IMG/VR virus record: IMGVR_UViG_3300031507_000014 | Location: 1-44,193 of that record | Direction: 5' to 3' (one strand) | Source: a virus | Length of the DNA: 44,193 nt | Part shown: piece by piece, positions 6,963 through 21,847 of the stretch | Layout of the letters: every line of letters starts with the position of its first letter | How positions within the stretch are numbered: the first letter of the stretch is position 1 | Made by a program: the position numbers and the translations under genes | The notes under the pieces: generated by a model | Databases searched by the model: none | The model's input: only the letters and a program-made list of their open reading frames with translations | What the model was told of the DNA's origin: nothing

Positions 6963-7155
6963 CACAACACCATCATGGCAGCGTTGGCCTCCAAACTGTT
7001 GTGAAACATGCACTGGATGGGCCCCAATTGATGAATGGACAGGCCGGTGCAATCAATCACCAGTTAACTCAGGAGATGTAACCGACGCAAGATTCCGTTG
7101 CCAAGACTTCAAAAGGAAATCAGATGCCCAGCTTAAGCCAACATCAGAGCAATGA
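6949..7155 (+). CDS. Cysteine-rich small protein (68 aa, TTG start)
   Basis: The frame has no ATG in a useful place; TTG at 6949, inside the previous gene, is the likely start. Four or five Cys (CCETC near residues 17-21, Cys near 34, RCQDF near 52) can form a zinc or Fe-S knuckle of the CxxC...C...C kind. Its 3' end overlaps the ATPase start by 32 bases. It belongs with the other small Cys-containing proteins of this block. Function is unknown. Confidence 0.5.
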   Translation: MPNPDTTPSWQRWPPNCCETCTGWAPIDEWTGRCNQSPVNSGDVTDARFRCQDFKRKSDAQLKPTSEQ

Positions 7156-8005
7156 ATACACCAAACTCCTTATCGAAGGCGACTCTGGCTCTGGCAAAAC
7201 CGGCGCACTCGCCTCCCTTGTCTCTGCCGGCTTCTCCCTCCGCATCCTAGACATGGACAATGGCCTCGATGGGCTCAAACAATTCATACTCCGAGACTCC
7301 CCAGACAAGATCGACAACGTCGAATACCGCACGCTTCGAGATAAATATAAATCTGGCCCCGAAGGCCCTGTCATCGCCGGTACCCCCAAAGCGTTTGTGG
7401 ATGCTGTTAAACTACTTGACCGTTGGAAATACACCGATGGAGGGAGTGAGACTGACCTTGGTGTGCCAAGCGAGTGGGGATCAAACTGCATCCTTGTCAT
7501 TGATTCCCTCACGTTTCTATCGGACGCCGCATTTGCGTTTCGCGAGCCTTTGGCCCCGCGTGGTAAGGATGGCAAGCACGATGCAAGGGCGGTCTACAAA
7601 GACGCTCAAGATGCAATTGAGAGTGTCTTGGCCTTCGTCACTGGCGAAAGCTTTAGAACCAACGTCATCGTCACGAGCCATATACGATATATCGAGAACC
7701 CAGACGGTTCGAAGAAGGGTTACCCAACTTCTGTCGGAAGCGCACTTGGGCCTATTATCCCAAGATATTTCAACAGCGTTGCGCTCTGTGAAAACAAAAA
7801 CGGGAAGCGACAAATAAGCACAGTCGCCACGGCGATGATCGATCTCAAGAACCCAAAGCCATTCGACATGGCAAAGTCATACCCAATCGACATCGGACTT
7901 GCAGAATTCTTTGGGGTCCTCCGGGCCGCTCCAAAGGTTGCCGAAGCCACTAAGGTGGTTGAGGTGGTTAAACCAAAGGCCCTTACATTAGCGAGGAAGA
8001 TCTAA
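7124..8005 (+). CDS. Sak4/AAA_24-like RecA-fold ATPase (recombination)
   Basis: The start ATG has AAAGGAAATC upstream. Residues 19-26 are a Walker A loop, GDSGSGKT, and Walker B is ILVIDSLTF near 125-133. A sensor-like VIVTSHIRY near residue 185 is typical of the phage family known as AAA_24 or Sak4, single-strand annealing and recombination ATPases with a RecA core. It is 293 residues, normal for that group. A ssDNA-binding protein candidate follows at 8219, the usual partner. It probably promotes annealing or strand exchange during replication or repair. The C-terminus LARKI weakly recalls the KRRI tails elsewhere. Family assignment is strong; exact activity is inferred. Confidence 0.85.
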   Translation: MPSLSQHQSNEYTKLLIEGDSGSGKTGALASLVSAGFSLRILDMDNGLDGLKQFILRDSPDKIDNVEYRTLRDKYKSGPEGPVIAGTPKAFVDAVKLLDRWKYTDGGSETDLGVPSEWGSNCILVIDSLTFLSDAAFAFREPLAPRGKDGKHDARAVYKDAQDAIESVLAFVTGESFRTNVIVTSHIRYIENPDGSKKGYPTSVGSALGPIIPRYFNSVALCENKNGKRQISTVATAMIDLKNPKPFDMAKSYPIDIGLAEFFGVLRAAPKVAEATKVVEVVKPKALTLARKI

Positions 8006-8218: not shown

Positions 8219-8683
8219 ATGGCAAATCAAATCTCTGACATCCTCGACAAGCCCTCAACCCAGATTGACAAGCCTAAGCCCCTGCCTGTTGGCACCTACC
8301 TCTGGTCCGTTCAAGGCTTACCAAAGCATGACAAGTCGACAAAGAAGCAGACGCCATATGTCGAATTCACCTGCAAATGCCTCTCCGCATACGACGACGT
8401 GGACGAAGAAGCCCTTGCGGAATGGGCAACCAAGGCCGATGGCACCATGCGTGCACTGCAAGACTACACCACTCGGCTTACGTTCTACATCACCCCTGAC
8501 TCCGTCTATCGGCTTCAGGAGTTCTTGGATCATTGTGGCGTTGCGGATGAGGAGAAGTCGACTCGGCAATGTATTGACGATACACCAAATTGCCAATTCG
8601 TGGCGAGCATCGTTCATTCGGCATCTGACGATGGCACTACGGTCTATGCCAATATCGGCAAGACCGCACCGGTTGAGGAATAA
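8219..8683 (+). CDS. Probable ssDNA-binding protein (154 aa)
   Basis: The frame opens at 8141 inside the previous gene, but ATG 8219 begins the recognisable protein. After a linker of about 15 residues, LPVGTYLWSV begins a beta-rich domain with TPYVEFTCKCLSAY and RLTFYI strands, a helix at VYRLQEFLDHCG, and a last strand pair ending VYANIGK. Similar proteins follow Sak4-like ATPases in many phages and are annotated as ssDNA-binding or DUF669-like proteins. Beta content and position support that role here. The C-terminus TAPVEE has acidic residues but no DDxIPF tip. The annotation is by context and general look, not by a clear signature. Confidence 0.6.
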   Translation: MANQISDILDKPSTQIDKPKPLPVGTYLWSVQGLPKHDKSTKKQTPYVEFTCKCLSAYDDVDEEALAEWATKADGTMRALQDYTTRLTFYITPDSVYRLQEFLDHCGVADEEKSTRQCIDDTPNCQFVASIVHSASDDGTTVYANIGKTAPVEE

Positions 8684-8686
8684 TCT

Positions 8687-8935
8687 ATGACAACAGAACG
8701 TGAACAAACCTATGGCGAAAAGGCTGTTGGCCTCACCTTCAATCCCTCTGGAATGGGTGATGTTGATAAGCTGAAGAAGCTATATGCCGAGATCATCGAT
8801 CACATGGATGACTTCCGCAAGGGCTATATCAAACGGGGCGATAATCCCGAGATGGTACGTTATTGCTCCGTTGCCATTACCGAAGCGCAAACAGCGCAGA
8901 TGTGGGCAGTGAAAGCAGTGACCTTTCGCGGATAA
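8687..8935 (+). CDS. acb2-like: Acb2/Tad1-like anti-defence protein (cyclic nucleotide sponge)
   Basis: The start has GAGGA seven bases upstream. The 82-residue protein has the pattern I associate with the Acb2/Tad1 hairpin family (once DUF7681): Y9-GEKAVGLTFNPSG, a first helix DKLKKLYAEIID, a short break, then a second helix ending AITEAQTAQMWAVKAVT. Acb2 proteins form oligomers that trap the cyclic di- and trinucleotide signals of CBASS, and related proteins trap the Thoeris signal. Its usual length is 80-95 residues, so this copy is complete. A strong hairpin follows the stop. The family call is from memory of the motif. Which nucleotide it binds cannot be read from sequence. Confidence 0.75.
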   Translation: MTTEREQTYGEKAVGLTFNPSGMGDVDKLKKLYAEIIDHMDDFRKGYIKRGDNPEMVRYCSVAITEAQTAQMWAVKAVTFRG

Positions 8936-8945
8936 CCAGTAATTA

Positions 8946-8975
8946 GATGGGGTCGGTATTGCCGACCCCATCTTT
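8946..8975 (+). terminator. Terminator-like hairpin after the Acb2-like gene
   Basis: GATGGGGTCGG and CCGACCCCATC form a perfect 11-bp stem at 8946-8956 and 8962-8972, with a five-base loop TATTG and TTT directly after. It occupies most of the only real gap in the plus-strand block (8936-8992). The U tract is short, so it may act as a partial terminator or attenuator, or protect the 3' end of the upstream mRNA, with the genes from 8993 onward read at a lower level. Confidence 0.6.
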
Positions 8976-8992
8976 AACTCAATGGAGCCACA

Positions 8993-9433
8993 ATGGTCAA
9001 ACTCCCAGGCATAACCGAAGAACTCAAACGGAGGCCCGTGTTCGATGTTAATTCCTTACTCGGGGAAGCTGAAAACCACACGGAAGAAAGGCTCAAAACG
9101 CGGGTCGAAGTGCCACATGACCCCACTGGAACGGGGGTTAGCCATTTCAGCCCGTCGGGAGGGAATGTCGATCCTCAAGATAGCCCGAGCCCTAAACCGC
9201 AGCGAGCTCACGATCATGAATCTGTTGCGGAAGACGCCATCAATCCCGCGCACTATCGGCGCCATCCGAGCGGGATTGAGTGTATTGAAGTCACGAGGCA
9301 TATGAACTTCAACGTAGGGAATGCGATGAAGTATCTCTGGCGCTACATGGACAAGGGCGATCCGGTGGAGAACCTTAAGAAGGCACAGTGGTATATTGAT
9401 GATGAGATTCGCCGGTTGGAGGGGAAGAGATGA
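8993..9433 (+). CDS. DUF3310 protein with long N-terminal extension (146 aa)
   Basis: GGAG lies five bases before the ATG. Residues 83-140 carry the DUF3310 signature: INPAHY, IECIEV, NFNVGNAMKYLWR, then an acidic/basic helix PVENLKKAQWYI. DUF3310 proteins are common in phages next to replication genes; the T7 relative gp1.7 has been linked to nucleotide phosphorylation, but the activity of this form is not established. The first 82 residues are polar, Pro/Ser rich and unlike the usual short leader. No good start exists between 9113 and the conserved part, so the extension is probably translated. Another frame across the same DNA encodes an HTH (9045-9305). Confidence 0.8.
   Translation: MVKLPGITEELKRRPVFDVNSLLGEAENHTEERLKTRVEVPHDPTGTGVSHFSPSGGNVDPQDSPSPKPQRAHDHESVAEDAINPAHYRRHPSGIECIEVTRHMNFNVGNAMKYLWRYMDKGDPVENLKKAQWYIDDEIRRLEGKR
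9045..9305 (+). CDS. Nested HTH protein in an alternative frame (86 aa)
   Basis: This frame lies wholly inside the DUF3310 gene. ATG 9045 has GGAGG ten bases upstream. The product has a basic N-terminus, then MTPLERGLAISARREG, and SILKIARALNRSE followed by LTIMNLLRK. This is a convincing helix-turn-helix (glycine turn, then IARAL-x-R-S as in resolvase/HTH_38-type domains). The last 20 residues overlap the conserved DUF3310 start and may be incidental. The competing frame here codes low-complexity, unconserved sequence, so both may be used. A small regulator of the replication operon would fit. It may instead be a fortunate reading; homologues would decide. Confidence 0.45.
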   Translation: MLIPYSGKLKTTRKKGSKRGSKCHMTPLERGLAISARREGMSILKIARALNRSELTIMNLLRKTPSIPRTIGAIRAGLSVLKSRGI

Positions 9434-9702
9434 GAATTAACGTATATACCGAAGAATTAATCACAGTTGGCAACAATCCAGTTATGGCTGAGATTGTAAC
9501 AGCGGATTATATTTCATCTCGAACAGGCCAGCCAATGACTAATTATGGCATTCGTATCTATCTTAAGTCTCATCCTGATTTGCATTATGTTCCACCGCGA
9601 GATGATGATCGTTCAGCAGTGACATTTTGGTGTGGACCAACTCGAAAGCATGCCGAAGACTATTGGCGTTTTGTAGGCAAAATGGCTTTTGGTGTAGCGT
9701 GA
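9430..9702 (+). CDS. Unknown small protein (90 aa)
   Basis: The ATG overlaps the previous stop as ATGA and GAGGGGAAGAG stands just upstream. The sequence alternates short strands (INVYTEELI, NYGIRIYL) with loops and ends in a helix (KHAEDYWRFVGKMAF). It looks like a small alpha/beta domain, but I do not recognise a family. It is directly upstream of, and overlapping with, the UDG-exonuclease gene, so a replication accessory role is possible. Confidence 0.6.
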   Translation: MRINVYTEELITVGNNPVMAEIVTADYISSRTGQPMTNYGIRIYLKSHPDLHYVPPRDDDRSAVTFWCGPTRKHAEDYWRFVGKMAFGVA

Positions 9703-10802
9703 CCCCTCTAGTCATAGTTGGCGAAGCCTGGGGGTCTGAAGAAGCCCGTATTCAACAACCCCTAGTCGGCCCTTCCGGCATTGAACTCCTTACCCAACTC
9801 GATGAAGCCCAAATCCTCTCTCTAACCGGAGAGGATAAGTCGTATCTCAGACGTTATTGGGACACCAGAGACCCCAACTGTCTTGATGCAATATGGAGAT
9901 TACACGCAGATGAAATCCACCGAACCAACGTCCTCAACTTCCACCCCCACGCCAATAAGCTGGATACAGTCTGCGGACCCAAATCACTCGGGGTCACTGG
10001 GTATCCTGCACTCATCAAGTCGGGATACCTTGATAGTCGGTATGAGCCAGAGCTTGAACGCCTTGGCGAAGAACTTGTTTCTCATAACCCTAACCTTATT
10101 CTTGCTCTTGGGAATACTCCTCTTTGGGCTCTGGCAGGTAAGACAGGAGTTAGTAAGCTTAGAGGGACAACTCTCTACTCGACCCATACAGCTACCGGGT
10201 TTAAGCTTTTGCCCACCTATCACCCCGCCGCAGTCCTTAGACAGTGGGAGCTTCGACCAACGGTTATAATGGACCTAATGAAAGCCAAAAGGGAGTCAGC
10301 CTATGCCGAAATCATCCGCCCGAATTGCGAAATATGGATCGAGCCCAGCCTCGACGACATCTCCCGCTTCATCACCGAATATGTCCAAACTTGCGATCTA
10401 CTATCTGTCGATATTGAAACGGCAGGAATCCGTGTCACATGCATTGGCTTCGCTCCCAGACCAGACCTTGCAATCGTTATTCCATTCGATGACGTACGCA
10501 CAACGACGGGTTGCTATTGGCCTACTGCAAAGCATGAACAATCAGCATGGAAGCTTATACGTGAGGTGCTTGAGGATGGCTCAATCCCAAAGCTCTTCCA
10601 AAACGGCGTATACGACATTGGCTTCCTCATGCGAAGCTACGGAATTCTTGTCAAAGGCGCTAGGGAAGACACGATGCTCCTCTCGCATGCCCGCCAGCCG
10701 GAAAGTCTCAAAGGACTAGGTTACCTCGGCTCAATCTTCACAGACCATGGATCGTGGAAGCATATGCGGAAGAAGCATGAGACAGTAAAGAGGGATGAAT
10801 GA
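9699..10802 (+). CDS. Uracil-DNA glycosylase fused to DNA polymerase 3'-5' exonuclease (part)
   Basis: The GTG at 9699 overlaps the previous stop (GTGA); the frame is open to 9627. Residues 1-200 look like a family 4/5-type UDG: VGEAWGSEE at 8-15, VGPSG at 23-27, a NVLNFHP strand at 77-83, LALGNTPLWALAG at 135-147 and LLPTYHPAAVLRQ at 170-182. The CxxC Fe-S ligands usual at the start of family 4 are not seen. Residues 225-367 hold DnaQ-like exonuclease motif I (SVDIE; D238, E240) and motif II (QNGVYD; D306). Motif III is missing here and appears in the next gene. It probably removes uracil and proofreads for the polymerase at 10799. Confidence 0.85.
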   Translation: MTPLVIVGEAWGSEEARIQQPLVGPSGIELLTQLDEAQILSLTGEDKSYLRRYWDTRDPNCLDAIWRLHADEIHRTNVLNFHPHANKLDTVCGPKSLGVTGYPALIKSGYLDSRYEPELERLGEELVSHNPNLILALGNTPLWALAGKTGVSKLRGTTLYSTHTATGFKLLPTYHPAAVLRQWELRPTVIMDLMKAKRESAYAEIIRPNCEIWIEPSLDDISRFITEYVQTCDLLSVDIETAGIRVTCIGFAPRPDLAIVIPFDDVRTTTGCYWPTAKHEQSAWKLIREVLEDGSIPKLFQNGVYDIGFLMRSYGILVKGAREDTMLLSHARQPESLKGLGYLGSIFTDHGSWKHMRKKHETVKRDE

Positions 10803-12316
10803 AGATCATCTCTACGCAGACATCAGACCCCAATCAGTTGACGGAGTTTGAAAAGGATCAATGCTATAACGGACTCGATTGTTGTATTACTCGTGAAGTC
10901 TTTGATGCTATGAGGTTCGGCCCCAATGAACAAACCATGGAGGAGGCACAGACCTACGCCTTCTCCAAGGCCCTCCAAGGGCCAGTGCTTGAGATGAATG
11001 CCCGAGGCATCCTCGTAGACCAAGCACGCCGTAACGAGGTCCTTGAGGAGTACCACGACGCATTGGATCAACTAGAACGCCAGCTAACGCTTATTGTCCT
11101 CGAAGGCGTGGGGATGAAGTGGTTTAACTGGCGATCGAATGATGATCTTAAAGCCCTGTTCTACACCCACCTTCAAATCCCGGAGATCAAACGCTATGGC
11201 AGGCCTACAGTCGATCGTGATGCTTTGGAGAAGATGGAGCAATACACCGTCACCAAGCAGATTATTGCACATATGTCCGCTATGCGGGAGCTTGCTAAAG
11301 ACATCGGAGTGCTTAAGACTGAGATTGACTCGGACGGACGGATGCGAACCAGTTACAATATTGCTGGAACTAACACCGGACGATTTAGCAGTTCTTACTC
11401 CGAGTATGGAACCGGAGGCAACGTACAGAATATCAAAGAATCCCTGCGATCTGTATTTGTTGCGGACTCGGGATATAAGTTCGCCAAGTTCGACGCAAAG
11501 TCCGGCGAGTCCTACGTCGTCGGCGCAATAGAATGGAACCTGTTCAATGATCCGACATACCTTGACGCTGTCGATTCCGGTGACGTGCATACAGCCGTTG
11601 CTAGAATTTGTTGGCCAGAACTTAAATGGACTGGAGTATTGGACCAAGATAAGGATATTGCGGAGACACCCTACTATCGCCATTATACATATAGATTTAT
11701 GTGCAAGAAGCTTGGCCATGGCTCAAACTATGAAGGACAACCTACTACTCTGGCTCAACAGTCAAAACTCCCAGTTAATGTCGTCAGGCAATTTCAACCC
11801 AAGTACTTCACCGCATTTCCAGCTCATCTCCAGTGGCACGCATGGGTCAAGGCGCAGGTATGGGCTAAAGGCTATATCGTCAACCTTGCCGGACGGAAGC
11901 GATGGTTCTTAGGCAGGCGGAACGATGCGGATGTGATTCGTGAGGCGATTGCATATGATCCGCAAGGTTCCTTGGCTGATATCGTCAATCAGGGAATGCT
12001 CAACACATGGCGCCAACGACCAGCCATACTCATGGCGCAAGACCACGACGCAACAACATGGATGTACCCGGAGGAGATGGAAGATGAAGTTGTGCCAAAG
12101 CTACAACGTATGCTCGCGGTGGAGGTGCCGCTCAACAACGGTCGCCTATTGGCTATCCCATATGATTGCCAAATAGGTTGGAACCGAGGGAAGTATGATG
12201 CACGGAAGAATCCCAACGGACTCGTCAACTACAAAGGGCATGATAATCGCCAAAGACAAACGGAAGCTGGAATCTTGGATAGACAGTTTCGTCGAGCAGA
12301 CCGGAAATTTAGATAG
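10799..12316 (+). CDS. Family A DNA polymerase (exonuclease motif III plus polymerase domain)
   Basis: ATGA overlaps the previous stop, with AGAGGG as ribosome site. Near the N-terminus CYNGLD (Y23, D27) is exonuclease motif III, completing the site begun in the previous protein. Then come the thumb, TGRFSSS at 193-199, motif A KFDAKSGES (D232, E237), motif B from R299 through KK303-304 to Y311, and motif C QDHDA (H416, D417). Both catalytic aspartates are present; the usual Glu after HD is Ala418. At 505 residues it is a polymerase-domain length without the full exonuclease. This should be the replicative polymerase. Its last 120 bases overlap the next gene in another frame. Confidence 0.93.
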   Translation: MKIISTQTSDPNQLTEFEKDQCYNGLDCCITREVFDAMRFGPNEQTMEEAQTYAFSKALQGPVLEMNARGILVDQARRNEVLEEYHDALDQLERQLTLIVLEGVGMKWFNWRSNDDLKALFYTHLQIPEIKRYGRPTVDRDALEKMEQYTVTKQIIAHMSAMRELAKDIGVLKTEIDSDGRMRTSYNIAGTNTGRFSSSYSEYGTGGNVQNIKESLRSVFVADSGYKFAKFDAKSGESYVVGAIEWNLFNDPTYLDAVDSGDVHTAVARICWPELKWTGVLDQDKDIAETPYYRHYTYRFMCKKLGHGSNYEGQPTTLAQQSKLPVNVVRQFQPKYFTAFPAHLQWHAWVKAQVWAKGYIVNLAGRKRWFLGRRNDADVIREAIAYDPQGSLADIVNQGMLNTWRQRPAILMAQDHDATTWMYPEEMEDEVVPKLQRMLAVEVPLNNGRLLAIPYDCQIGWNRGKYDARKNPNGLVNYKGHDNRQRQTEAGILDRQFRRADRKFR

Positions 12317-15408: not shown

Positions 15409-15929
15409 GTCTGCGGTCCTTTCAACATTGATAACGCATTCGTCTTCACACTCGCCGTACGGTTCAACCAACCTTGTGTGAATCGAGGTTGGTGAAGGGA
15501 CTTGTACCAATTGGCCTTGGTTGCGGAGAACTTCTCAATCAGGCCTTTGGCGTCGCAGTTGCGGATTGCTTGACGACTGACGGCCCCAATGCGTCCGTCA
15601 GGGTTCACACCAAGGGCCTTCTGCAACAACACCGCTGCACGATGCGGACCTGCATTCACTGCCATGTCAAAGTAGAGATAGTCGATGCCGATTGGCAAAT
15701 TATCACACAATGGCATCCAATATTCATCGTGATAGATCTGGGCAATGTCATGTGCAGACGCCTTCCACACATCTGATGACGGCCAACCCTGTTCCTTACT
15801 CCACGCATCATACTCCCTCTGTGTAATCCCTCGTGATGTCCTACCACCATGGTCTGCTGGATCGTCATCATTCCCACCTTCACTCTTTAACACAAGTGCT
15901 AAACAAGCCTGAAAGTTATCTGCGCTCAT
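15405..15929 (-). CDS. Endolysin, GH108-type muramidase (174 aa)
   Basis: The N-terminal half matches glycoside hydrolase family 108 (N-acetylmuramidase): the catalytic Glu17 in KSEGGNDDDP, followed by DHGGRTSRGITQREYDAW. The second half has YFDMAVNAGPHRAAVLLQKA and LGVNPDGRIG, as in the peptidoglycan-binding region that usually follows. Length is standard. It cuts the glycan strands of peptidoglycan to free progeny. It has no signal peptide, so it needs a holin; the likely one follows at 15112. The start overlaps the stop of the large ejection protein by one base. Confidence 0.92.
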   Translation of the reverse strand: MSADNFQACLALVLKSEGGNDDDPADHGGRTSRGITQREYDAWSKEQGWPSSDVWKASAHDIAQIYHDEYWMPLCDNLPIGIDYLYFDMAVNAGPHRAAVLLQKALGVNPDGRIGAVSRQAIRNCDAKGLIEKFSATKANWYKSLHQPRFTQGWLNRTASVKTNALSMLKGPQT

Positions 15930-18900
15930 TACTTTTCCTCTCTTGGTTTAGTCGTGCCTTTCAGTGTCCCCCGTGCAATGTCCCCAAATGTCTTGGGGTG
16001 GGCTTGTTGGTTAACGAGATCGATGCCAAAGCGAATGGCGTTGTCGACTGTCTTTGGTGCCATTCCAGTACCATGGCCTAAGGCAGTTAGGGTATCGCCA
16101 ACGGTCTTGCCCATCCGGGCTTTGGTGAATGCGTCTTTGCGGCCGAGATCCTTTGCGGCTTTGACAATGTCATGCAGGGGACTGGAGATCAGCCCCACAC
16201 CCACATCCTGACCGCTAAGCATACCATGCACAATATCACGAGCATATAGAACCGAGGAAGAAAGCCCAAGAAGGGATGCCGTTGCGGCATGCTCGAGCCA
16301 TCCTCGTTTGTCATCGGTGGTTAGGCCAGTGACCCATTCTTCAACTAGGGTTGGCCAGATGACGTAGGTGAATACGTCTCGCGCAATCCCAGGGATATTC
16401 TTAGCCGCTTCGTTAAGCTTGTTCTGTTCCATCAATCCCCAAGTATCATGTATGTCCTGCGCAAGCTCTATACGTCTCTGCATAACAGTACCAAAAAACC
16501 CATACACAGAAGTAAGCCAGTTGTGGAGAGCACCTCCACCTCGGACCAAAGCAGGTTGATTAGTGACTGCCGTAGAGCCATGAGCCAAGCGCACCGCTGC
16601 GTCGGCTTGGTCGATTGATTCGCCATGAGAAAGTCCTTTCTCCTCCATCGCGGTACGATAAGCTGCTAACCAAGTAGGCTTGGCACTGAGCATATCTGAT
16701 TGGGCAATCAACCAACTACCGCCTTGGATTATGTTTTCACGAATGTTCTTAGCACCTTCGATCTCTGAATGAGCGCCAAAGATCGTATCCTGCCAATGCC
16801 GTTCGCGGCGCTGAACCTCCTCACTCCAATGCATGATGAACTCATGATTGGCTTGGGTTAGGGATGGTGATCGGCCGTAGAGATCTTGAGTAGCACGGAG
16901 GAAGTTCTTGGTACCAACTTGGCGAGCAGATAGAACCCATGCGGTTGGGCCATGTTTGAGGGCGGTGAAGGGGTTATAACCTATGTAGGTCGAGATAACA
17001 TTCTGGCGCAGCCATTCAGATATCTGCCTACCCTTGGCTGCGGCTTTGGAGGGGATAGACTCCTGTCCAGCAATAGCTTTAAGCCATGGCAAGAGGAAGT
17101 TGCGTCCATTGTACTCCGCACCATAATGACCCGTGATTGAGTTGGATAGGCCTGGGTCTTTGAATAGCTTTTGTGTTTCGAGCACAAACGAACGGAACGA
17201 GATGTCATGAATCATCTGCCCAATACGGACAGGCGTCATATCAGGGTTCAAGTCCAGAGGATAAGCTGCTCCGCTTCGTTTCTTCGTGTATCCATTGGAA
17301 GTACTGATATGGCCGAAATCTCCGTCATCATAAGCCCCATCTCGGATAGGAGACTTACCTTCAATATCGGGGTGTTTAATAAGTGGATGGTACCATCCTT
17401 CAAAGTTACCATGTATGTTGGATATTGGTTCGAGAGGGATCTTGTCGATGGTAATGCCATGGATGTGTTCATACTCCTGATCAGCGAGTTTGACGAGATC
17501 GCCAAAGACATCCTTGCCAAGCTTCTGCGCACGGACCCAATCACCTTGGCGAGTATTGACCTCAAGCCATTTCATCAGCGCGGCTGGATCAGCACCATAG
17601 CCCTTGGCGAGCACGTTCCAGTTGCCCTTGTTACCAGCATTCTGCAACATGGTTGCGACATTGCCCCGGGTGAAGCGGATGAATGGCTGGCCTGTGGTTG
17701 GGTCGTTGAATGGTGCTACGACGAGTTTGTCCTTATCCTCAATCTCGCCAATGGCTTGATACTTCCTTGCGAACTCACGCTGAAGGGCGGATTTGCGATT
17801 GGCTGCTGCGGCAGCGGGATAGGTCACGTACTTGTTAAAGACTGATTGCGGATCACGGTTCCCCATACGGTTGAGGAAGGTTTCCATGTTCGTGACCGAT
17901 GCCAAGAAGGTCTTCGGCAAATCCTTCAGCTTATCCCATCGGGTCTTAGTGGCGTTGATTGGATTAAGTGGGAACTGTTCCACATGATCCTTCATCTCAT
18001 CAATCACCGCCTTCCGATCCGCACTCTCACCGGCTTTAATAATCTTCTGCTCATCCCTCGCGTTCTTAATCAGCGCATCAATCGTCTGCTTCGCACCCAT
18101 GAAGTCATGAGTGGTAAGACTATCCACGGTCGACAATTTACCATCAACAATAACATCAGCAATAGGAATATCCCTATACCCATAGCTCTCTGCCAACTTG
18201 GCATCGGCAAATTCCTCCAAGGTCGCTTGTCGACGATCAAGGTTTTCTTGGATATTCTCCAATGATCGGCCAACTTTGTACCCCATTTGTTGGAGGAGGT
18301 TTTGGATATGGTTTAGGTATTCGGGTTCGATACCTTTGACGTCAGCTTTGCGGAATGGCTTTGCAGCTTTGTCGAGCTTGGCTTTGGCCTTTTCTACGTC
18401 TCGGGCAAATTGGGCATAGATAGTGTTGAAGTACTGCGCCTGCTTAGAGGTAAAGGCATCAGCGGGCTTGTTGTTAAGCAAGGCTAGCTCGGCATTCTTC
18501 CCGTGCTTCCCCGCTTCCCGCAACCACTTGTCACTATCTATTGCCCGCATAGGAAGAGCGTCGAACTTCTCCTTAGCCGCAGAGACAAGTTGGTCCTTGG
18601 TGATTGATCCAAATGTTGAGCCTGCCATTCCTGCAAGGGCGTGAGTCTCTTCGTGGAGTAGGTCGAGTTGGTTTTGGCTAAGGATCTGATCTTTAGCCTC
18701 CTCGAGAATGTTCTTTTCAAGGAATCCATGTTCGACTTCCATCCTTCGGGCGATTTCTACGTCGATTAGATGGCGTTGGAATCGCTCTTTGCCGAGGCCT
18801 GTGGCTTTGCGGGTTTCATTGAGGCGGATTAGCCCAGCGACCATTTGATCTCCAGTCGGATAACCAAAGAGATGGGCGATGTCGTCGGGTTTGACACCAG

Positions 18901-21847
18901 TTCGGCCGGTGATGTAATCATTAGGCAAGGCGGCGAGTTGCTCTTTGGTCAGGGATTCACGGTCGAGCTTATAGGTATTGTCGAGCTTCTTCCCATTAAA
19001 CTCAGCACTAGCCAAGAACTTGTCGGCGGCAACGTCTGGTCGGGCGTTGATGTCACGGAGCACGTCCGGGCGCATGGCTTCGGACTTAGCCTTCCAATCC
19101 GCGGTTTGGCGCTTGGTTTGATCCGCAAGGACTCGACGTGAGGATGCAGCCAGATCGGCCTGTTGCCTCGCTTCGATCAACTTCATATACCGCTGATACT
19201 GCGGCACGGTCATGGCTATGTCTTTAGCCGCACGGAATGGTGGGGAGGCTTCGGTGCCAGAGCCGGGTTCGAGAGGAGCGGATAGTTTAATATCAACAGG
19301 ACCTCGTTTGGCCCCACTAATACGTTCGCCTGTAATATTCTTAGCATTGGGGAATTGCTGTTTAATCTGCTCTACGATATCTCTAATCTGAGCAGTAGAT
19401 AAATCTTGCCCGTATTTGCGAGATGAAGCCCAGCCAACGTTTACAGTCTCTGCATCTTTAGCACCATGTAATTGTAACGCCCCAACCTCTTTTCCATTAA
19501 CATCACGAATACGATATGAATTATAAGTTTCATCACTACGACGTGGATCAAGAGTAAGCTTATCTTCAGGTCGTACAGCCATTTGAGCAGGCTCAGATCC
19601 AATCTCCGGCCCAAGCTGCTCACCACGTCCACGGACTTCGCCAGATTCGATCTTGCCGAACAGGTCTTGATAGGTTGGTTCAGCCCCAAGCACCCGACGG
19701 AGATGGCCTTTGATGGCCTCAATTAGTTGATCAAGCTTTTCAAATATCCGATCCACAGCAGTGAACGTCGCTGGATCTCGTTGGCCCTTCTCCGTTCGCC
19801 AAGTACGGAATGCTTCAGCTACGGATTCTTCGAGCTTGCCTCGGGAATCTAATGTCTTATAGCGTTTGTCGATATCGAACCGCTGATTCCAACCTTCAGC
19901 TTCGGACGCAGCTTTAAGCACTCCACGTTCTTCATCCGTGAACCTATCCCACAATCCATGCACGGCTTCATGACTGAAGATCGCCGCAGGATCATCCGCA
20001 CCGAGGGAGATCATGATTAGGTTGCGGCCATCGCGGAACTTCTGATGCAAGCCTGATGCACGACCACCGGGGTATTGAATGGAGTCGACGAAATTGACTT
20101 TAGTCGAGCGTGAGAGGATTCGATCCGCGTCGTTAAGAATGTCATTGATGGTCTGATTTTCAACTCTTGTACGATTCTCACCAAACTTGGCAAAGACGTT
20201 GTAGCCGGGATATGGTTCGACCCAGGTTCCGGTGGTGAGGTCGCGGAATTGTTTGTCAGTGGCAGATGGATCGGTATCAAACTCACTAAGCTTAATCTTA
20301 GCCAATGGCGAAGACATCTCCACTCCAGCGGCTTCCCTTGCACCAGAGATGCGATGACCGGTTAAGGTTTCGGCATTGGGGAATTCGGCTTTGAGTTGGC
20401 GAATCAATGATCGCATTAAAGCTGGCCCGAAGTTATTGGGGTTGTAGTATTCCCCAAGGCCGTTAATCATTTCGACGTAGAGATCTTTGCCGCCTTTCTG
20501 TTCACTGAGATTGATAGTGCCAACTGATTGGCCGTTCTCATTAATCATGTCGAAGTCATGGAAGCCTTGCTCGGGACCAAAGGTTCCACCCTCAGACGCA
20601 AGCCGCTTAAGCTCAAGCTTCCTATCCCCGATTGAAAACATCGGCTCCATGCCATTTGCGGCACGGACTACTGGAATGGTCTCGTCAACGGTCGGGATAG
20701 GTGGCGGTGCGGCCTTTAGATCCTCAGCTTCCTTCGCCGTAATCCCTTCCGGCACAACCCGTAGATCATCATGCAGCGCCTTGTGTACCTCAGGGTCAAC
20801 CTTGGCAATCCAGTCCGCCATTGGGACTGTAATATCCGCCCCTGTCTCCTTAGCCACCTCAAGCTGTTCAGCGAGATTGGGCACCCAGCCTAGAATCCCG
20901 TCGTCAGCGCTAGGAAGCTTATCGCCATAAAGGCGCAACGCCGCTTCGCCACTAATCCCCATGGTTGCGCCATTGGTGTGTTGATCCACGAAGTCACGAA
21001 GAAGCTCAGGCGCACGTTCACGGCCAGGGACAGCTTGGGCGTCTTTGATCTTTTCATCAAGGAGGTCGAGGGCAGATTGATTGAGTTCGGTTTTGAGCTT
21101 GTCGATCTCTGGGTGGATACCAGCAGGTGGAACCTTATCTGAGGCAAGCCAAGGACGGGCTTTGGCAAGGACCTGCATTGGCCCTTCGGCTCCGCCACCA
21201 AGGCCTTTGACGCCGATATCCCCTCGCATCATAGAGTATTCGGCCATGCCAGCTACGTCATCGGCGAGCTTCTTGCCACCAACGGATTCGAGCATGTCAT
21301 GTGAGGCGTGGATTGCGCCACCGATTGAACGAGATAGGCCTTCAAAGCCAACTTCACCAAGGCCTACGATTTGGCCCAAGGCTCCATATGCGGCCGTTGC
21401 GGCGTGACTACCCCCGGTCATGTCGAAGGTTTTGGCAAACTCCTCGTCAGAGCCAAAGCCCGTGTAGAACTTCCTTGTGTTGATTGGTTGATCGCCAAAG
21501 CCTTCGCGGAATGATTTGCCAAGACCGGTTAGGCCATCGGATAGTTTGTCGAGTTCGCCATAGGAGTCGTTGAAGATCTGTGAGTTGAGCGGATGCCGTT
21601 GAACGAAGTCGGCAATGTATTGATTCCGCCCTACGATCACATTCGACGCAGCGACCTTGGTGTTTCGTTCAAAGGATTCAAGGTCACCACTAATGATTGA
21701 GGCTGGAACTCCAGTCACCTTCTCAAGCTGATAGGCCCGTGCGGAGTCATCGGGATTAACATCAGCATTTGCCGCAACGCGAGATGATGCACCAGCGCCA
21801 TAGATATTGCGGATCGTGCCGGTGTAGTCGAGATCGTCATCGGCCAT
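15929..21847 (-). CDS. Giant virion ejection/polyvalent protein (1972 aa) with zincin motifs
   Basis: The largest gene takes the place of T7 gp16 after two smaller ejection proteins, so it probably travels in the capsid and enters the host cell. Residues 626-630 (HEAVH), with a later EESVAEAF, fit a gluzincin-type metalloprotease. A second HExxH (HEETH) is at 1065-1069. Two related alpha/beta modules with TGxRISGA motifs lie near 425-510 and 770-850. Near the C-terminus, around residues 1720-1790, the sequence resembles large polyvalent protein domains (AAVRLAHGSTAV then VYGFFGTVMQRR). Long helices fill much of the rest. The start overlaps the previous gene by 11 bases. Enzyme activity is proposed, not shown. 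Confidence 0.85.
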   Translation of the reverse strand: MADDDLDYTGTIRNIYGAGASSRVAANADVNPDDSARAYQLEKVTGVPASIISGDLESFERNTKVAASNVIVGRNQYIADFVQRHPLNSQIFNDSYGELDKLSDGLTGLGKSFREGFGDQPINTRKFYTGFGSDEEFAKTFDMTGGSHAATAAYGALGQIVGLGEVGFEGLSRSIGGAIHASHDMLESVGGKKLADDVAGMAEYSMMRGDIGVKGLGGGAEGPMQVLAKARPWLASDKVPPAGIHPEIDKLKTELNQSALDLLDEKIKDAQAVPGRERAPELLRDFVDQHTNGATMGISGEAALRLYGDKLPSADDGILGWVPNLAEQLEVAKETGADITVPMADWIAKVDPEVHKALHDDLRVVPEGITAKEAEDLKAAPPPIPTVDETIPVVRAANGMEPMFSIGDRKLELKRLASEGGTFGPEQGFHDFDMINENGQSVGTINLSEQKGGKDLYVEMINGLGEYYNPNNFGPALMRSLIRQLKAEFPNAETLTGHRISGAREAAGVEMSSPLAKIKLSEFDTDPSATDKQFRDLTTGTWVEPYPGYNVFAKFGENRTRVENQTINDILNDADRILSRSTKVNFVDSIQYPGGRASGLHQKFRDGRNLIMISLGADDPAAIFSHEAVHGLWDRFTDEERGVLKAASEAEGWNQRFDIDKRYKTLDSRGKLEESVAEAFRTWRTEKGQRDPATFTAVDRIFEKLDQLIEAIKGHLRRVLGAEPTYQDLFGKIESGEVRGRGEQLGPEIGSEPAQMAVRPEDKLTLDPRRSDETYNSYRIRDVNGKEVGALQLHGAKDAETVNVGWASSRKYGQDLSTAQIRDIVEQIKQQFPNAKNITGERISGAKRGPVDIKLSAPLEPGSGTEASPPFRAAKDIAMTVPQYQRYMKLIEARQQADLAASSRRVLADQTKRQTADWKAKSEAMRPDVLRDINARPDVAADKFLASAEFNGKKLDNTYKLDRESLTKEQLAALPNDYITGRTGVKPDDIAHLFGYPTGDQMVAGLIRLNETRKATGLGKERFQRHLIDVEIARRMEVEHGFLEKNILEEAKDQILSQNQLDLLHEETHALAGMAGSTFGSITKDQLVSAAKEKFDALPMRAIDSDKWLREAGKHGKNAELALLNNKPADAFTSKQAQYFNTIYAQFARDVEKAKAKLDKAAKPFRKADVKGIEPEYLNHIQNLLQQMGYKVGRSLENIQENLDRRQATLEEFADAKLAESYGYRDIPIADVIVDGKLSTVDSLTTHDFMGAKQTIDALIKNARDEQKIIKAGESADRKAVIDEMKDHVEQFPLNPINATKTRWDKLKDLPKTFLASVTNMETFLNRMGNRDPQSVFNKYVTYPAAAAANRKSALQREFARKYQAIGEIEDKDKLVVAPFNDPTTGQPFIRFTRGNVATMLQNAGNKGNWNVLAKGYGADPAALMKWLEVNTRQGDWVRAQKLGKDVFGDLVKLADQEYEHIHGITIDKIPLEPISNIHGNFEGWYHPLIKHPDIEGKSPIRDGAYDDGDFGHISTSNGYTKKRSGAAYPLDLNPDMTPVRIGQMIHDISFRSFVLETQKLFKDPGLSNSITGHYGAEYNGRNFLLPWLKAIAGQESIPSKAAAKGRQISEWLRQNVISTYIGYNPFTALKHGPTAWVLSARQVGTKNFLRATQDLYGRSPSLTQANHEFIMHWSEEVQRRERHWQDTIFGAHSEIEGAKNIRENIIQGGSWLIAQSDMLSAKPTWLAAYRTAMEEKGLSHGESIDQADAAVRLAHGSTAVTNQPALVRGGGALHNWLTSVYGFFGTVMQRRIELAQDIHDTWGLMEQNKLNEAAKNIPGIARDVFTYVIWPTLVEEWVTGLTTDDKRGWLEHAATASLLGLSSSVLYARDIVHGMLSGQDVGVGLISSPLHDIVKAAKDLGRKDAFTKARMGKTVGDTLTALGHGTGMAPKTVDNAIRFGIDLVNQQAHPKTFGDIARGTLKGTTKPREEK

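Follow-up and report, generated by a model that had tools for sequence, protein, structure and literature searches.

Gene content and organization of the locus

The window, as we term the whole 44,193-nt stretch of IMG/VR virus record IMGVR_UViG_3300031507_000014 that was analysed, contains at positions 8687–8935 of its plus strand an open reading frame (ORF) that starts with ATG, stops with TAA and encodes an 82-residue product, as an earlier sequence-only reading had noted. That reading placed the ORF in a replication block, which was borne out: the gene order is UvrD-type helicase, PD-(D/E)XK exonuclease, Sak4-like ATPase, the gene at 8222..8683, the ORF, DUF3310, UDG plus 3'-5' exonuclease, family A polymerase and DUF3987, with the gene at 8222..8683 unassigned. 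The features closest to the ORF are:

7124..8005, plus strand: Sak4-like ssDNA-annealing ATPase (PF13479, phrog_124)
8222..8683, plus strand: upstream partner gene, whose stop lies 3 nt 5' of the putative sponge gene (no Pfam or PHROG match)
8675..8679, plus strand: GAGGA, a Shine-Dalgarno-like element 7 nt 5' of the ATG and within the end of the upstream gene (sequence)
8687..8935, plus strand: Acb2/Tad1-hairpin family protein of 82 residues, predicted cyclic-nucleotide sponge (PF24729, AlphaFold2, hhalign to canonical Acb2 groups)
8945..8973, plus strand: hairpin with a 12-bp perfect stem and a 5-nt loop (-26.5 kcal/mol, z -5.7)
8993..9433, plus strand: DUF3310 gene, 3' of the hairpin (PF11753, 45.8 bits)

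When the ORF was compared with four relatives, the ratios of synonymous to non-synonymous codon changes were 9:1, 26:4, 29:7 and 30:10. As these changes are mostly synonymous, the gene is under purifying selection, and since 266 of the 270 candidate stretches retrieved from viral contigs with a single-sequence query also encode relatives, it is a real gene and not a chance ORF. The product of the partner gene at 8222..8683 could be guessed to be an ssDNA-binding protein, because the gene adjoins Sak4.

Several other features of the window were recorded. The DUF3310 gene at 8993–9433 encodes about 75–80 N-terminal residues beyond its family match, and translation may in fact begin further downstream. 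The family A DNA polymerase at 9627–12316 is split into two genes, UDG plus 3'-5' exonuclease and then polymerase, that overlap by 4 nt (10799–10802); in one relative locus (L002) and others like it, the two polymerase parts also match separate ORFs. On the minus strand, 15929–21847 encodes a 1,972-residue protein with only a sub-threshold LPD22 match, which is probably a virion protein because of its size and place.

A hairpin follows the gene and its upstream partner

The hairpin that the sequence-only reading had placed after the gene is real, and its stem is the longest among the three perfect hairpins with a stem of at least 9 in the window, with no terminator called at 8945–8973, where the T-run is short. 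Of 84 loci examined, 46 have the partner gene next to the putative sponge gene, 27 of them on its upstream and 19 on its downstream side. In a hand-picked set of 30 distinct in-group loci, 12 carry a strong hairpin (z <= -3) 3' of the putative sponge gene. Leaving out two loci that lack a detectable partner homologue (L006 and L030), the hairpin is present in 12 of 15 loci with the partner upstream versus none of 13 with the partner downstream, a comparison among related loci for which no p-value is given. Since the hairpin tracks the partner-upstream arrangement, it is probably a terminator at the 3' end of a unit common to both genes. This result, together with the 3-nt distance to the upstream gene, contradicts the earlier suggestion of a separately tuned gene. 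The stem sequences of the hairpins are mostly unrelated across relatives, and annotated terminators likewise lie 3' of acb2 in PaMx33. At positions 1921–1951 of L002, the stem is as at 8945–8973 and the loop is its exact reverse complement (TATTG versus CAATA), which looks like an inversion of the stem-loop.

The 82-residue protein matches the Acb2/Tad1 hairpin family

The sole Pfam match of the 82-residue protein was to the Acb2/Tad1 hairpin family, PF24729 (34.4 bits, E 2.5e-8), for which the curated gathering cut-off is 27 bits, and all 34 relatives scanned against Pfam matched PF24729 at E <= 0.001 and no other family. The best PHROG was phrog_717 (E 7.3e-8); PHROG 717 is given as the source of the Vs.4 homologues of Jenson et al. 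2023 in the accessible part of that paper (PMC10097602). The motif text of the sequence-only reading, YGEKAVG...NPSG...AITEAQTAQMWAVKA, is found in the protein as quoted.

Relatives are numerous in viral contigs, where a query with an alignment found them encoded in 426 of 481 candidate stretches; we retained the best 80 of the 266 relatives from the single-sequence query and the best 80 of the 426 from the alignment query. Relatives were also encoded in 25 of 71 candidate stretches from bacterial genome contigs, and phage records gave 158 matches at E <= 1e-3, every one below 60% identity. Our literature search found no paper that names the accession PF24729, and it found no functional test, binding or phage data for the branch described below, which we refer to as the FNPS branch. 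Annotation of Acb2 homologues has already reached environmental phages, Statler being one example (PMC13348362, as seen in excerpt).

To compare this branch with proven Acb2 proteins, PaMx33-type (75 sequences) and T4-type (32 sequences) groups were collected separately and aligned by local hhalign to a profile of 77 distinct branch sequences, a set that also served for residue counts and from which cut or truncated members (L147, L166 and L169) and exact duplicates had been dropped. The branch profile matched the PaMx33-type group with E 1.5e-8 and a score of 46.8, versus 16.6 for the best of 60 column-permuted controls and 10.2 for the reversed profile, and the T4-type group with E 7.5e-5 and a score of 29.4, versus 19.6 and 9.7 for the corresponding controls (again the best of 60). 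Runs with the global-mode flag scored lower (E 3.6e-7 for PaMx33-type and 2.2e-3 for T4-type), and the local runs were used instead. A sequence search of the PDB with the window protein alone matched no Acb2, and a 34-row profile reached PaP2 Acb2 at E 0.28–0.29 only. Another profile, A2, found PaP2 at E 1e-22 and Vs.4 at E 1e-18 in the PDB and was left unused, as it contained T4 and PaMx33 themselves; MAFFT placed these two in A2 with the N-terminus out of register, and hhalign was preferred.

The predicted fold has an Acb2-like layout

The AlphaFold2 model of the 82 residues (pLDDT 93.5) is all-helical, with a short N-terminal helix (9–14) followed by two long antiparallel helices, H24–50 and H54–79. 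In the accessible text of PMC12043709, Acb2 is described as having a short helix at its N-terminus and then two long antiparallel ones, and Tad1 as having an N-terminal four-strand beta-sheet followed by two helices; the predicted layout of the 82-residue protein matches that of Acb2, not Tad1. The first Foldseek match in the PDB was 7uq2, T4 Vs.4/Acb2 with cGAMP (probability 0.98, E 0.96), with no PDB match at E 0.001 or better. VIA-align also placed 7uq2 first, aligning 64 residues at 2.3 A (Z 7.9). Taken alone, the fold match to 7uq2 is weak, because unrelated helical bundles reach Z 7.5, versus 7.9. In a viral model library, the two best-ranked models (E 6.5e-4 and 2e-3) carry the name Acb2/Tad1 hairpin protein. 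The assignment to the Acb2/Tad1 hairpin family made in the sequence-only reading is thus upheld by a PF24729 match above the cut-off, PHROG 717, an Acb2-like secondary structure and a significant profile match with both canonical Acb2 groups.

The branch keeps helix-3 residues and replaces the N-terminus

In T4 Vs.4, cGAMP is contacted by Y8, H11, K23, R79 and F82, and hexamer formation relies on L29, A66, A73 and A77 (both from the accessible text of PMC10097602). The counterpart of K23 in the extended T4 hhalign alignment is K30, conserved in 77/77 branch sequences, and the hhalign pairing gives K76 (76/77) as the counterpart of R79 and M72 (77/77) as that of M75. Counterparts of the hexamer interface are also kept, with A63 (77/77) for A66, A70 (75/77) for A73 and A74 (73/77) for A77. 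T65, present in 74/77 sequences, corresponds to T4 T68; in a T4-like phage, replacement of this residue by M reportedly lowers binding (accessible text of PMC12657230). In the PaMx33 alignment, K26 and R85 stand opposite K30 and K76. We take Y11 and K26 to be key residues of PaMx33, Y11 presumably being its base-stacking tyrosine.

The N-terminus is where the branch departs from the canonical proteins. These begin KGY, with GY in 69/69 PaMx33-type and 32/32 T4-type rows that have letters there, and this GY motif with its base-stacking tyrosine is absent from the 77-sequence branch, in which the canonical N-terminal segment is replaced as a block by TYGEKAVGLTFNPSG. Within the new segment, F18 and N19 are found in 77/77 sequences and P20 in 76/77. 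F18 falls on T4 Y8 in the extended T4 alignment, with low confidence in that part, and a second N-terminal aromatic, Y/F9, occurs in 75/77 sequences; judging by the alignment, F18 or Y/F9 might stand in for the stacking tyrosine. T4 H11 pairs with S21 or K12, and the stacking F82 of T4 pairs with T79, which is followed by W/F/Y80 (76/77). The Pfam profile match starts at position 1, which holds the GY, in T4 Vs.4 and PaMx33, and at position 11 in the window protein. The sequence-only reading had named a lack of the nucleotide-contact residues as evidence against its proposal: K23 and R79 have the counterparts K30 and K76, whereas Y8 and F82 align to no aromatic with confidence. On sequence grounds, the protein belongs in PF24729 on a branch of its own and is not Acb2 proper, because the GY N-terminus is absent, F82 pairs with T79 and the Pfam match begins only at position 11.

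A proposed role as a cyclic-nucleotide sponge

On the combined evidence of sequence and model, the 82-residue protein is probably a cyclic-nucleotide sponge directed against CBASS-like signalling, and we infer for it a hexameric state, ligand binding, an anti-CBASS effect and early timing. The all-helical protein would probably assemble like Acb2 (T4 Vs.4, PaMx33/PaP2 gp24-p26), with its two long antiparallel helices packing via the small last-helix residues A63, A70 and A74 to give a hexamer, and ligand would be held between subunits by K30 at the start of helix 2, K76 in helix 3 and the conserved N-terminal loop FNPS. Made early in infection with the replication genes, the sponge would bind cyclic oligonucleotides from host CBASS, or from related signalling, and would not degrade them, so that effectors stay inactive.

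CBASS is available as a target in the class of the nearest relative from a bacterial bin, since 19 of 151 genomes from this class encode CD-NTases (SMODS), and nothing links this phage to a CBASS host. This relative (85%, with the same gene order) is encoded on a single 7.4-kb contig in a Terriglobia MAG (L142), a link that may be a binning error. Of four bacterial genomes that directly hold relatives, the Terriglobia MAG included, none encodes SMODS. One Avibacterium paragallinarum genome carries an identical branch member at five loci on two contigs (L153–L157), which suggests multiple related prophages.

The same scaffold may serve another ligand, and members of the FNPS branch would then sponge a different nucleotide signal: cyclic trinucleotides, oligoadenylates of type III CRISPR and ADP-ribose derivatives are examples. 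We hold this reading only tentatively: the dinucleotide-stacking N-terminus is replaced as a block by an invariant TxGEKAVGxxFNPS with no GY while the helix-3 scaffold is kept, but counterparts of K23 and R79 are also kept, the N-terminal alignment is of low confidence and F18 may replace Y8. It is a sub-case of the sponge explanation, not its opposite. An alternative would be a helper of replication or recombination that works with the Sak4, ssDNA-binding and polymerase genes and has only the hairpin scaffold in common with Acb2. Such a role would suit a gene that stays in the replication block in this phage group, often adjoins its partner and in the window follows it so closely, yet we find it improbable, as Pfam membership and the contact residues favour a sponge and relatives at 40–58% identity lie elsewhere: between lysis genes and terminase in Pmp11 and Aaphi23, between terminase and portal in DSL-LC05, and amid a series of small early genes in EcP1. 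Such scattered places are more in keeping with an accessory gene for counter-defence than with a replication factor.

The Pfam hairpin family name also covers Tad1, and the sequence-only reading had offered Thoeris as a second target. An anti-Thoeris sponge of the Tad1 kind, with gcADPR as its ligand, is nevertheless very hard to reconcile with our model, which lacks the N-terminal four-strand beta-sheet attributed to Tad1 in the accessible text of PMC12043709, so the Thoeris half of that proposal finds no support; neither sequence nor fold searches matched a Tad1 chain, which alone proves nothing. Returning to the sponge explanation, it is conceivable, if doubtful, that the FNPS branch is a separate hairpin-sponge lineage, present in environmental phages as well as in prophages of several bacterial phyla, and that its replaced N-terminus confers a range of ligands so far undescribed for either Acb2 or Tad1. 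The relatives in viral contigs add a large branch to a known sponge family, and since this branch differs exactly at the base-holding residues of proven Acb2 proteins, it bears on how the ligand range of the scaffold is set.

Comparison with known systems

With Tad1, the window protein has the Pfam hairpin family name in common and differs in that its model has no N-terminal beta-sheet domain. The homologues in Enterobacter phage EcP1 (gp26), DSL-LC05 and Pasteurella phage Pmp11 belong to the same FNPS branch (55–58% identity), but they occupy other genome places and are annotated as hypothetical proteins only. PaMx33/PaP2 Acb2 (PDB 8H2J, 8IXZ) is likewise in PF24729 and has the AI..T..QT/G.M core in common with the window protein, whereas its KGYRDLS..EI..MN segment is TYGEKAVGLTFNPSG here and its AQP tail is missing here. 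T4 Vs.4/Acb2 (PDB 7UQ2; PMC10097602, as far as its accessible text describes it) is alike in PF24729 membership and in its short N-terminal helix followed by two long antiparallel helices, and its K23, R79, A66, A73, A77, M75 and W76 correspond to branch K30, K76, A63, A70, A74, M72 and W73. It differs in its GYKPH N-terminus, a Y8 in unambiguous register and a QP tail, all missing here, and in F82, which is T79 here with W/F80 adjoining; identity to the window protein is about 22% in the structural alignment. The 82-residue protein is a fresh relative within a known sponge family and no new kind of system.
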